The notes under the pieces: generated by a model
The model's database searches: none
What the model was told of the DNA's origin: nothing
What the model saw: the letters and a program-made list of their open reading frames with translations, nothing else
Part shown: positions 6,078 to 9,193 of the stretch, one piece after another
Position numbering within the stretch: position 1 is the first letter of the stretch
How the letters are laid out: each line of letters opens with the position of its first letter
Assembly: GCA_002699585.1 (NCBI GenBank)
Contig: PABP01000010.1
Coordinates: forward strand, 1 to 64,000
Length of the DNA stretch: 64,000 bases
Origin: Anaerolineaceae bacterium
GTDB taxonomy: Bacteria > Chloroflexota > Anaerolineae > Aggregatilineales > Phototrophicaceae
Reading direction: 5' to 3'
Translations under genes and position numbers: made by a program

Positions 6078-6677
6078 ATGAGCGTCGTTGATAGCAAAGC
6101 AAAGAACGATCCACTACAAGACGATGAATACGCATCACTGCCCAAGTGGGTGCGGTTGTGGGCATTCAAAGGCCAATTTGGGGATTCAAAATGGAAGTGG
6201 GTGCTGCTCATCGTGCTGCTGGTGCTGATGCCCATCTTTGCCTACTCGGCAGGCAGCCAATATGTAACGGAAATGAACAATCAACATTTACTCGATACAA
6301 TCGGCGTGACAACCGAAGGTACCGTCATTCAGAAATATACGCAATCAAGCGGCAGCTCATCCAGCGGCACGCGCTCGACGAACTATTACGTGCGCTACAA
6401 TTTTGATGGCAACCCGGAACTCGGCATGGACCTCATCTATGCTGAGCAGGAAGTCAGCCGCGATATGTTTAACACGGTGCGGGAAAACCGCGATGTTACC
6501 GTAACCTATCTGCCGGATAATCCTGAAATCAGCCGTATTGAAGCGCGCAATGATGAAGCTTTCATCCTGGTTGCAGTCGCGCTGTGCCTGGGCATTTTCG
6601 CTTTCGCCCTTGTGTCGGCAGCCGCCAATTTCCAGATGGACCGCTTTAAAGCGACTCAGAAGAAAAAGCTACTTTAA
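6078..6677 (+). CDS. DUF3592-domain membrane protein
   Basis: 199 residues. Polar N-terminus, membrane span at about 47-67, an extracytoplasmic beta-type domain holding a Ser-rich loop (SSGSSSSGTRS) and the DUF3592 ending VTVTYLPDNPEISRIE, then a second span and a basic tail. The domain is of unknown function and is widespread in bacteria. The second ATG of the frame is taken as start because GGGGAGGG lies 5 bases upstream of it; the ATG at 6060 has no such site. Its 3' end overlaps that of the convergent methyltransferase gene by 4 bases. Confidence 0.75.
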   Translation: MSVVDSKAKNDPLQDDEYASLPKWVRLWAFKGQFGDSKWKWVLLIVLLVLMPIFAYSAGSQYVTEMNNQHLLDTIGVTTEGTVIQKYTQSSGSSSSGTRSTNYYVRYNFDGNPELGMDLIYAEQEVSRDMFNTVRENRDVTVTYLPDNPEISRIEARNDEAFILVAVALCLGIFAFALVSAAANFQMDRFKATQKKKLL

Positions 6678-7426
6678 TCCGTTCGGCTCACTTTGCGATA
6701 ACGCGAGATAATCATCGAGTGGCACGCGCGGAAGCGGGCATCCGGCCCAGCATGTTTGAATACATCCAGCGCATGGGCCAGCACATCGTCATGTAGGCAC
6801 GTTGATCCCTGGCGCTCGTCTAAATACTGCTTGTAGTCGCTGGGGGTCGGCCAATAGGTATACAGATTGAAGGCCATATGCGCTTCCTGATTGAAAAGCC
6901 CCATCGTCTGGATTTTCTCCGCAGCCTGGTTAGCGCCTTCATCGCGCGCCGCACGGCCCGCTGCATCGGCATCGCCTACAGGGATCACATGCTCATCCGT
7001 GACGACTTCTAGCGCGTACTCAACTCCGACCGGGCGCAGATCGATCATGTAGCCGCCATCGACCAGAACGCGGTGCACATCTTGTAGGGCATGGACCATG
7101 CCCGCAATGGTGATGCATCACAAAGACCAGGCGAATATAGCCCGATCAAACGTCTTTTTAGCGAAGGGCAATTGCTCCGCCTGGGAACAAGTCAAAGCGA
7201 CTTTGGCTTCTAAATCCGCTGGGCGAAGTTTTTTGGCCTGGGCGACAGTTGCCGCATGGGGTTCCAGGGCCGTGACCCGGCCTGCAAAACGCGCATAACG
7301 CCACGTCAGCCGACCATCGCCGCTGCCGATTTCCAAAATGTGCTTACCCTCTAAATCCGCGAAATCGCGCAGCATACGGATCTCAGTCTGTTCCGGGTCG
7401 CGCTGTTGATGCATATCAGTTGGCAT
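6674..7426 (-). CDS. class I SAM-dependent methyltransferase with in-frame TGA (possible selenoprotein, or nonsense-broken)
   Basis: One frame of 250 codons is interrupted only by a TGA at 7118-7120 (codon 103). Before it come motif I (LEIGSGDG, residues 31-38), the acidic end of beta-2 (ALEP) and motif IV (FDRAIFAWSL). After it the frame continues with CITIAGMVHALQDVHRVL and GGYMIDLRP, the expected post-motif and beta-5 of the same fold, and runs 141 more residues from the next Met. So no frameshift is involved. The TGA falls where related enzymes have a small or polar residue (ALHHIP, SLCCIP-type). It is either selenocysteine, a nonsense mutation or a sequence error. A perfect hairpin with GU in its loop starts 14 bases after it. 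If TGA is read as stop, the 102-residue product would lack half the fold. Substrate unknown. Confidence 0.7.
7087..7103 (-). promoter_or_regulatory. SECIS-like hairpin downstream of in-frame TGA
   Basis: A perfect 7-bp stem GGGCATG / CATGCCC with loop GTC (minus strand), starting 14 bases after the TGA; the loop G is 22 bases after it. Bacterial selenocysteine elements have a short stem at about this distance with G and U in the apical loop; the E. coli fdhF loop is AGGUCU. The same bases encode GMVHA, so the palindrome could be a coding accident. Confidence 0.35.
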
Positions 7427-7558
7427 GTTGTTTGCCCTGCTAATTTATCTGGAACCATATGCACATCATAACGCGCCCCGATGCCCCTGCAAAATATCTT
7501 AATTACTGCAACATAACGTACAATGATTACGTATAGGGTGCAAAAGTGGGGACAGCCT

Positions 7559-8347
7559 ATGATCTATGATGGCAAGATTAAACGCAAAAACGATCAACGC
7601 CCGCAGCGGACTGTCGGCGATATTTTGGGGTTGGTACTTTACTGGATGATTGTCGCGCCAGTAGTCTTCGTTGCCAACGGGACCTGGGCCACCGTACGCT
7701 GGCTGACACGCAACACCTGGGCCGCCACTAAATGGCTCGCTCGGAATAGCTGGGCCGCACTGGTATGGACACTCAAAGCAGGCTGGTATAGCAGTGGCTG
7801 GATTTTAGCCAATACCTGGCGCTATGGCGTTGTGACCCCCGTGAACTGGCTGCGTATCCTCATCTTTGGCCGCGAACCCGAATTTGCCAATCCGCAGCAA
7901 GCCGAGCGCTACCGACTGACCCGTCGCAGTTTCCGCAGGCGGCAATTTTTCCTGGCACATGTTTTTCTGTTCGTCGGCTGGCTTGCCATACTCACCTACT
8001 CCATGTACGAAGCCACCACGTATTCTTATGGCTATGGTTACATCACCTGGCGTAATCCCATTCTGGCGACCATCGTCTGGATTGTCTTTCTGATATTCCA
8101 CTTTTTGCGACTGCGCATCGGCCAAGCTGAGGACGAAGCCTTATTAGAGGTCATGGGTGAGAGTGGCGAAAAGCGCAAAATGCATTATGAAGAAGAATAC
8201 GTTCAGCAGCGCCCTGACATGACCGAAGAATATCGCATGCGCCTGGGGGATGATGGCGAACTGGTTCACGGTGACTTCGACGAAAGTGACCTCAGCGACG
8301 AAGAAATCGCTTATTACGAGCAAATGCAGCGCAATCAGCGAGAATAA
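7559..8347 (+). CDS. 2TM-domain membrane protein with Trp-rich repeats
   Basis: 262 residues. The N-terminal half holds three short Trp repeats of the type TWAxxxWLxRN (residues ~40-95), which look like amphipathic or interfacial helices. Next comes a basic stretch (RLTRRSFRRRQFF) and two membrane spans as in the 2TM domain family. The C-terminus is acidic and ends with MRLGDDGELVHGDFDES and DEEIAYYEQ, a block repeated in the next gene. Start: the ATG after GGGGACAG is chosen over an ATG 36 bases upstream that has no ribosome-binding site. It forms an operon with the next two genes. Function unknown. Confidence 0.7.
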   Translation: MIYDGKIKRKNDQRPQRTVGDILGLVLYWMIVAPVVFVANGTWATVRWLTRNTWAATKWLARNSWAALVWTLKAGWYSSGWILANTWRYGVVTPVNWLRILIFGREPEFANPQQAERYRLTRRSFRRRQFFLAHVFLFVGWLAILTYSMYEATTYSYGYGYITWRNPILATIVWIVFLIFHFLRLRIGQAEDEALLEVMGESGEKRKMHYEEEYVQQRPDMTEEYRMRLGDDGELVHGDFDESDLSDEEIAYYEQMQRNQRE

Positions 8348-8353
8348 GCCATC

Positions 8354-9193
8354 ATGTTAGTGACGAAAAATAAGAAACGTAACAGCCAACATACACTCGA
8401 TGCTGAAACTGAGCGCTGGAAAATCGCTCGCCGTGACCATAGGCGAAACCGATTCTTACTTTTCCACAGATTCGTGTTTTGGGGCTGGGTGGTTATTTTC
8501 CTGGTTGCCTTGGTTGAACATCTGCTAAACCCAGGTGTGCCGACGGTTTATGTGAGATGGTATGAGCCAGAAATGGCCATGCTGATGATGATCGCCATGC
8601 TGGCTACCCACACCGTCTGGGCAAGCATTGGCCGATCAGAAGACAGCGCCCGACTCGACCTCATGCGCGCATCACAGAGCAACGACTCCAACAACAGCCA
8701 ATTCCAGCAGAAGCAAAAAGTCCTGTACCGAATCACGCGCCGGATTCATCTACGTCAGCGTTTATTGACGATACATGGTTTCTTCTTGGCCAACTTTGCC
8801 ACTGTTTCGCTGTTCACACTCGACAACCGAAGCCCTGACCAACAAGACACCATTTTGTTAACGCTCATGTGGATGGGCATTTTTGCCATGCACTTCTTTT
8901 ATAATCGGTTTCGGGCAAGACAAGACGATGAGTTGCTCAGTGTAATTCAAACCAGCGAAGAAACGCCCCAAAAACGCAAACGCCACGACAAAAAAGAATA
9001 TGGTATGCGCCTGGGCGATGATGGCGAACGGGTACACAATGACTTCAGCGAAAATGAACTGACTGACGAAGAAATCGCTCATGACCGTAGGTATAGATTG
9101 CCAGATATGACATCCGATTCGCATTTATATGACGCAGAAACGCCAATAATCCAGCGAATTGGGAGTATAATGGAGCCAACTAAAAAACCGTGA
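8354..9193 (+). CDS. membrane protein with two 2TM domains, paralogue of upstream gene
   Basis: 279 residues with two copies of a basic segment plus two membrane spans: residues ~22-95 (RRDHRRNRFLLFHRFVF) and ~125-200 (RRIHLRQRLLTIHGFFL). The acidic tail repeats the block of the upstream protein (MRLGDDGERVHNDF, TDEEIAHDRR). Six bases separate it from the upstream stop, so the two are coupled. The AT content is a little higher than upstream. The basic-helix/2TM unit is found fused to kinases and regulators in other bacteria, which suggests a membrane-sensing role, but nothing here proves it. Confidence 0.65.
   Translation: MLVTKNKKRNSQHTLDAETERWKIARRDHRRNRFLLFHRFVFWGWVVIFLVALVEHLLNPGVPTVYVRWYEPEMAMLMMIAMLATHTVWASIGRSEDSARLDLMRASQSNDSNNSQFQQKQKVLYRITRRIHLRQRLLTIHGFFLANFATVSLFTLDNRSPDQQDTILLTLMWMGIFAMHFFYNRFRARQDDELLSVIQTSEETPQKRKRHDKKEYGMRLGDDGERVHNDFSENELTDEEIAHDRRYRLPDMTSDSHLYDAETPIIQRIGSIMEPTKKP

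Follow-up and report, generated by a model that had tools for sequence, protein, structure and literature searches.

An in-frame TGA in a methyltransferase gene

The DNA analyzed here (the window) is the whole stretch of 64,000 nucleotides at positions 1 to 64,000 of contig PABP01000010.1, from the Anaerolineaceae bacterium assembly GCA_002699585.1. On its minus strand, the frame from 7426 to 6674 comprises 250 codons of a methyltransferase gene, and its sole interruption is a TGA at 7120–7118, codon 103 counted from the ATG at 7426. The features discussed below, in which U stands for selenocysteine (Sec) and C for Cys at a pair of adjacent codons, are:

6674 to 7426, minus strand: gene for a class I SAM-dependent methyltransferase of 250 aa, with readthrough of one TGA; TAA stop at 6676–6674.
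7118 to 7120, minus strand: predicted selenocysteine codon, an in-frame TGA at residue 103; the column is TGA in 97/105 distinct loci, Cys in 7/105 and Arg in 1/105.
7115 to 7117, minus strand: TGC, encoding Cys104; a second TGA stands at the same column in 85/105 distinct loci (79 UU plus 6 CU).
7087 to 7103, minus strand: predicted bacterial SECIS hairpin, GGGCAUG-GUC-CAUGCCC, which also encodes GMVHA.

An earlier reading made from the letters alone (the sequence-only reading) had proposed a selenocysteine-containing methyltransferase here, on the grounds of a single TGA at codon 103 in an otherwise open frame, a Cys beside it and a perfect 7-bp hairpin with loop GUC downstream. We recovered each of these elements: the frame 7426 to 6674 is open elsewhere, the codon that follows the TGA is TGC (7117–7115), and the hairpin at 7087–7103 begins 14 nt after the TGA, and 21 nt separate the TGA from the loop G (the 22nd base). 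The predicted read-through product around the TGA is ...FAWSL-Sec-Cys-ITIAGMVHAL..., and homology extends on both sides, which satisfies the definition of an in-frame TGA inside a conserved protein. The starts chosen for the relatives align with Met5 of the window protein (position 7414), which would make the Sec codon number 99 instead of 103 if the window gene starts there too. Without readthrough, the gene becomes two ORFs of 102 and 141 codons, the 141-aa ORF starting at 7099. Selenoproteins are easily missed where TGA is called as a stop; annotation would break this 250-aa enzyme into two fragments.

The genome encodes the selenocysteine machinery

Among the checks that the sequence-only reading had proposed was a search for selA, selB, selC, and selD in the same genome, and all four are present. 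In the assembly to which the window belongs (6.70 Mb in 42 contigs, 96% complete), profile searches returned selA (565 bits against a cut-off of 268), selB (344 against 242), and selD (380 against 125), the last with an in-frame TGA of its own (LTSLASCAGUASKLG). One tRNA-Sec was detected (72.8 against an Rfam threshold of 47), and ARAGORN agrees, reporting a tRNA-SeC with anticodon TCA. An Rfam search of the selD region of this genome gave only a sub-threshold sroD match (14.4 against 50 bits), presumably by chance. Across related genomes, selA exceeded its cut-off in 30/30 genomes with the methyltransferase family described below versus 74/121 without it (Fisher P 4e-6, not corrected for kinship). 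In G001, the one other genome of the window's genus in the sample, selA gave no match, and the best methyltransferase match was weak and generic (E 8e-4). With neither selA nor the family methyltransferase found there, the Sec trait may have been lost or gained within the genus, as judged from selA alone among the sel genes.

The same data bear on whether TGA could have been reassigned to a common amino acid such as Trp or Gly in this genome, an idea for which we found nothing specific and to which we attach next to no credence. Seven of the 35 long ORFs in the window stop at TGA, RF2 (prfB) is present (496 bits against a cut-off of 370), the genome carries tRNA-Sec, and the residue that TGA exchanges with in relatives is Cys.

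Most relatives carry two adjacent TGAs

Using the read-through protein as query, we searched 151 related genomes and found relatives in 29 further genomes (E 4e-51 to 1e-17). All 29 have two adjacent TGAs at the column of the window's TGA-TGC; 27 contain two TGAs, L029 contains three, and L039 contains two together with a gene-end TAA. Thus the Cys column beside the window's TGA, which the sequence-only reading had noted only as a neighboring Cys, is a second TGA in most relatives. A single-protein query scan of genome contigs gave no match; an alignment-based scan of 84,980 species' genomes did find relatives, and it contributed 80 more loci of 112 confirmed, the other 32 remaining outside our counts. 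Because one of the two scan patterns was written Cys-Cys, the scan should not disfavor Cys forms. A tblastn search of plasmid records at E 1e-10 gave no match.

After removal of repeats (L053, L103, L112, L127, and L128; 110 reduced to 105), the distinct loci comprise 79 UU, 18 UC including the window gene, 6 CU, 1 CC (L089), and 1 Arg-Gln (L122). The first column is therefore TGA in 97, Cys in 7, and Arg in 1, and the second TGA in 85, Cys in 19, and Gln in 1. Codon 103, which the sequence-only reading had suggested checking in homologues for Cys, Sec or another residue, is TGA or Cys in 104/105 distinct loci, and at least one of the two columns is TGA in 103/105.

Two further samples, counted by presence of TGA and not by its position, gave the same picture. 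In a class sample of 396 genomes, 48 family-level places (E below 1e-36) were found in 46 genomes, 40 with two TGAs, 8 with one and none without. In a phylum sample of 400 genomes, 52 places were found in 47 genomes, 35 with two TGAs, 17 with one and none without; at 47/400 phylum genomes, the family is common. These samples overlap each other and the 105 loci and are not additive. We read the pair directly in 33 loci from these searches (L142 to L174, some of which repeat) and found 25 UU (among them L151 and L167), 7 UC, and 1 CU. Because scoring was limited to the few best candidates in each genome, remote relatives with only Cys may have escaped notice. The near-absence of all-Cys members suggests that selenium is needed for the chemistry of the family.

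The sequence-only reading had left room for two alternatives, a recent nonsense mutation and a misassembly, either of which would make the window gene a pseudogene of an ordinary Cys methyltransferase. A single base separates TGA from TGC or TGT, and no reads stand behind the window base. Both alternatives fail, because independent assemblies share the codon and its context. TGA occurs in the pair in 103/105 distinct loci, Cys-only relatives number 1/105 and 0/52 in the phylum sample, and the hairpin covaries (see below). We consider this explanation very improbable.

Most scan loci come from Anaerolineae and other Chloroflexota; a few belong to metagenome bins labeled actinobacterial, acidobacterial, or armatimonadete. 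The named relatives are almost all metagenome-assembled genomes, and the non-Chloroflexota records may be binning errors. Among the actinobacterial bins (L065, L113, L117, L119, and L120), L065 nearly duplicates the Chloroflexi locus L063, and misbinning is the likely cause; the other four, together with the Acidobacteria bin L126 and the Armatimonadetes bin L108, are further removed, and either gene transfer or misbinning could account for them. Some genomes hold two family copies: both are one-TGA forms in G288 (contig C16), and G490 has a two-TGA and a one-TGA form on contigs C166 and C19. G583, G688, and G826 have two places each as well, some of them partial. In the Anaerolineae isolate CHL11 (L021/L103), the N- and C-terminal parts lie in different frames, which reflects a frameshift or an assembly error.

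A single hairpin at a fixed distance from the codon pair

The bacterial SECIS model printed in PMC13188914, as far as that source was accessible, specifies a stem of 4–16 bp, a loop of 3–9 nt with G in loop positions 1–2, and a distance of 16–37 nt from the UGA. The window hairpin, with its 7-bp stem, GUC loop, and 21-nt spacing, obeys these stem, loop, and spacing rules (the free-energy constraint is not covered by this comparison), so the earlier suggestion that it falls within the bacterial range stands, with covariation now added to it. The hairpin alone is weak evidence. Comparable hairpins, meaning perfect stems of 7 bp or more with a G at loop position 1 or 2, located 16–37 nt after a TGA, follow 28 of the 2428 TGA trinucleotides of the window on both strands (~1%), and the 66-nt stretch, when folded, did not exceed its shuffles in stability (z = −0.07). 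An Rfam search of the window at the gathering threshold gave no match. It is the comparison with relatives that decides.

We aligned the hairpin in the 103 TGA-bearing loci, leaving out L089 (CC) and L122 (Arg-Gln). Its distance from the codon pair is identical in 103/103 loci, and the loop leads with GU in 103/103, against 0/2 loci without TGA; this GU also belongs to a Val codon. Over the eight stem pairs tested, 95.7% of cells were paired, compared with 91.5% when shuffled and 18–57% when slid by 1–3 columns, and 0/500 shuffles reached any of the five measures. Kinship is not controlled for by the shuffles and is only partly so by the slid versions. Standard pairing was found in 103/103 rows for five of the pairs, in 102 for one, in 98 for the apical pair, and in 74 for the outermost pair, and 6/8 pairs show change on both sides. 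The commonest exchange is between a Gly codon opposite GCC (65 rows) and a Ser codon opposite GCT (35 rows). Variants with Val, Ala, or Thr in the stem (L113, L120, L121, and L114) re-pair, and Arg variants (L028, L033, and L047) pair via G-U. RNAalifold, unprompted, recovered a six-pair core of the same stem.

The stem and loop encode the conserved peptide GMVHA, so part of this conservation could be protein-driven. In L089 (CC), which needs no recoding, both the hairpin stem and the GMVHA peptide are gone; in L122 (Arg-Gln, no Sec), all eight stem pairs still form. In the UU genes, a single hairpin lies 21 and 18 nt from the two UGAs, both inside the 16–37 nt range.

With the Sec machinery present, a column occupied by TGA or Cys, and a covarying hairpin, the proposal of a selenocysteine methyltransferase is well supported. 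We regard it as very probable that the TGA at 7120–7118 is a selenocysteine codon, an inference drawn from sequence comparison without protein-level evidence and without reads. The window gene is predicted to be a UC (one-Sec) member of a family of methyltransferases with a vicinal Sec pair and a single SECIS.

Exchange of Sec and Cys, and purifying selection

A quick maximum-likelihood tree of 99 members required 12 changes between UC and all other states, at least 8 of them forced by well-supported branches, and 4 changes for CU. All states together required 17 changes, as few as in 1/200 shuffles. (The wider alignment omits L103, because of its frame change, and L094; the tree omits L021, L094, L114, L117, L124, and L125.) These changes indicate that Sec and Cys have replaced one another repeatedly at both positions, nearly always leaving one Sec or more in place. 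The window branch is long (1.05) and its placement unresolved; its nearest relative, L020 (41% identity), is UU.

In 15/15 hand-picked close pairs, dN/dS was below 0.5 (0.06–0.24 upstream of the codon pair and 0.07–0.41 downstream), from which we infer that purifying selection acts on both sides of the pair in all 15 pairs picked. Compared with 78 relatives, the window protein has a median identity of 43% in the part preceding the pair and 28% in the part following it; we take the lower value to mark a faster-changing substrate part.

These observations also address a split gene, in which translation would stop at the TGA and a second polypeptide would begin at the ATG of GMVHA (7099). A start codon does lie just past the TGA, at the head of the 141-aa ORF. 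However, L089 (CC, 243 aa) and L122 (Arg-Gln, 251 aa) are both single open frames, which argues that the full-length protein is the functional form. The TGA is swapped solely for Cys codons, save in one locus; the methyltransferase domain would be severed after β4; and neither the paired hairpin nor the exchange among UU, UC, and CU would be explained. We think it highly unlikely that the gene is split. In L122 (Anaerolineales isolate Zod_Metabat.740, 6310–6375), the pair is CGG CAA and the loop of the persisting stem lacks the leading GU; this possibly represents a recent loss of Sec, as judged from the sequence.

The Sec/Cys pair in the predicted structure and its gene context

The window protein meets the cut-offs of two Pfam methyltransferase families, Methyltransf_25 (PF13649, 53.4 bits against 27) and Methyltransf_11 (PF08241, 52.9 against 21.2). 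An AlphaFold model built with 79 sequences and with Sec written as Cys has a mean pLDDT of 94.9 and a pTM of 0.90, and this predicted model passes the test for a Rossmann-like methyltransferase fold. On this model and the domain matches, we assign the protein to the class I SAM methyltransferases; transfer of a methyl group from SAM is inferred, with no assay. The top structural neighbors, which are tied, are YcgJ (Z 22.1, rmsd 4.6, 204 aligned) and TleD (Z 21.3, rmsd 4.4, 200 aligned), and the fold searches returned many small-molecule methyltransferases, including RebM. ArsM is absent among the fold-search matches listed, which excludes nothing.

In class I methyltransferases, the loop after β4 lines the active site. 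In the model, β4 spans residues 93–99, the pair 103–104 falls in the next loop, and a helix starts at 107. No Cys column besides the pair reaches 90% in the wider alignment, which leaves the pair as the main conserved chalcogen center; a Cys in the glycine-rich loop is common in the family and is Ser in the window protein.

We tentatively infer, at somewhat less than an even chance, that the pair is a reactive soft ligand or nucleophile that holds or methylates a thiophilic substrate, the identity of which is unknown. That this substrate is a metalloid or chalcogen (arsenic-, selenium-, or mercury-like) is a low-confidence guess. No arsenic, mercury, or selenium genes were found among the 18 annotated neighbor-cluster representatives, which leaves chemistry as the sole basis for a metalloid.

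Alternatively, the protein could be a selenoprotein in which the pair serves as a redox switch (diselenide or selenenylsulfide) on an ordinary small-molecule methyltransferase. A vicinal chalcogen pair, the free exchange among UU, UC, and CU with at least 17 changes on the tree, and a general fold like that of TleD, RebM, and YcgJ would all fit such a switch. From the model, though, we infer that the pair sits in the active-site loop and not at a distal regulatory site, and no partner reductase was seen among the annotated neighbors, so we view the switch as doubtful without dismissing it.

Recurrent neighbors within flanks of up to 6 kb at 75 named loci included uracil phosphoribosyltransferase (28), a DUF1801 protein (21), zinc alcohol dehydrogenase (18), amidase (17), and a PEMT/ICMT-type protein (11). 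Among 20 loci from the family group to which the window belongs, an SH3-domain protein lies directly upstream in 14/20 and a Bmp-type binding protein downstream in 17/20. Annotation covered 10 representatives of the 75-locus set and 8 of the 20-locus set, not every cluster. The window gene itself has no conserved neighbor, and the window shares 0/30 of the neighbor clusters listed. The neighbor clustering carries no functional clue, and we rejected it as a source of function. Two adjacent plus-strand ORFs beside the gene (7523–8347 and 8354–9193) have no Pfam matches; by eye, they share a repeat that opens with an Arg-rich stretch (RRxxRRxxF...) and contains two hydrophobic spans, in about three copies in total.

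A proposed working center and its implications

In the mechanism that we propose, a ribosome reaching the UGA at 7120–7118 would meet SelB, carrying Sec-tRNA-Sec and attached to the hairpin 21 nt downstream, and selenocysteine would be inserted. Sec and its neighbor would then sit in the post-β4 loop, beside the point where SAM and substrate meet in this fold. In the typical family form, one SECIS would decode two adjacent Sec residues; in the window gene, the second would be Cys. The pair may act as a soft ligand or nucleophile for a thiophilic substrate or, as a second possibility, as a redox switch. Overall, we consider it probable that this is a widespread, undescribed family with two adjacent Sec residues in the active-site loop and one SECIS 21 and 18 nt behind them, in which the pair (as a diselenide, a selenenylsulfide, or a two-selenolate clamp) is the working center.

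The natural occurrence of UC and CU members suggests that one SECIS can serve either position. The tandem UGA makes it testable whether one SECIS delivers Sec twice at codons three bases apart, and UU, UC, and CU homologues are natural test constructs for such tandem decoding. If confirmed, two neighboring Sec residues next to the SAM site would form an unusual center for catalysis or metal binding, and a pair that is the working center would be a catalytic arrangement absent from the prokaryotic selenoprotein catalogue of PMC13188914, insofar as that catalogue was available.

Comparison with known methyltransferases and selenoproteins

Table 1 of PMC13188914 (2026), a source available only in part, gives 119 prokaryotic selenoprotein families or subfamilies. 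Its methyltransferase entries include ArsM (UxxG), ArsM/DUF2284, ArsM/AhpD, and MduS (CxxU, two Sec), together with a methyltransferase/UXPK-star fusion and a methylated-DNA-protein-cysteine methyltransferase. Among the motifs printed in the accessible table, there is no adjacent UU; several are CU, and some entries have no motif. The word "methyltransferase" is absent from the main text of PMC12013277, and no adjacent-Sec methyltransferase appeared in titles or abstract starts among the matches listed. The family thus appears undescribed in the sources within reach, which exclude preprints and most subscription papers.

Against NCBIfam, the window protein touches 23 families, far below each cut-off; for 79 members, the best match was to CpaM (E 1.2e-20, ~74 bits by conversion against 180, among the best 25 of 67 families). 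CpaM (NF043040), a corrinoid protein-associated methyltransferase, is the best NCBIfam match of the window protein, and no other family is matched by every one of the 79 members. Membership was rejected (43.4 against 180 bits); CpaM has no selenoprotein mark in the NCBIfam results, and no corrinoid protein was found among the annotated neighbors of the window family.

The ArsM (arsenite methyltransferase) selenoproteins (NF008823; ArsM/DUF2284, NF041536; ArsM/AhpD, NF041537) resemble the window protein in combining a SAM methyltransferase domain with Sec. They differ in their Sec motifs, UxxG and CxxU (both from the partial text of PMC13188914), compared with the adjacent pair of the family, and ArsM/DUF2284 and ArsM/AhpD carry a fused second domain that the window protein lacks. 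ArsM/AhpD gave a weak domain match in 60/79 members (best E 6.7e-12); the window protein falls short of membership, at 21.1 bits against a cut-off of 510. Membership in ArsM/DUF2284 likewise failed, with no window match at E 0.001 and a best E of 9.5e-10 among the 79 members. MduS (NF045649, methyltransferase domain-containing double selenoprotein) also has a methyltransferase domain and two Sec residues, but its model spans 338 positions and its motif is CxxU and not UU, again according to the available part of PMC13188914. The window protein matched MduS over residues 16–128 with 40.2 against 380 bits and is not a member (best of the 79 members, E 1.1e-11).

TleD (PDB 5gm1), a fold neighbor as described above, is also the best PDB sequence match (E 5.4e-14). 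TleD and similar small-molecule methyltransferases have only 18–22% identity to the window protein. To our knowledge, no selenium is known in TleD-type methyltransferases. In the alignment, Ser-Leu-Sec-Sec of the family faces Ser-Leu-Cys-His of TleD, so that the first column of the pair is Cys in TleD and the second is His.
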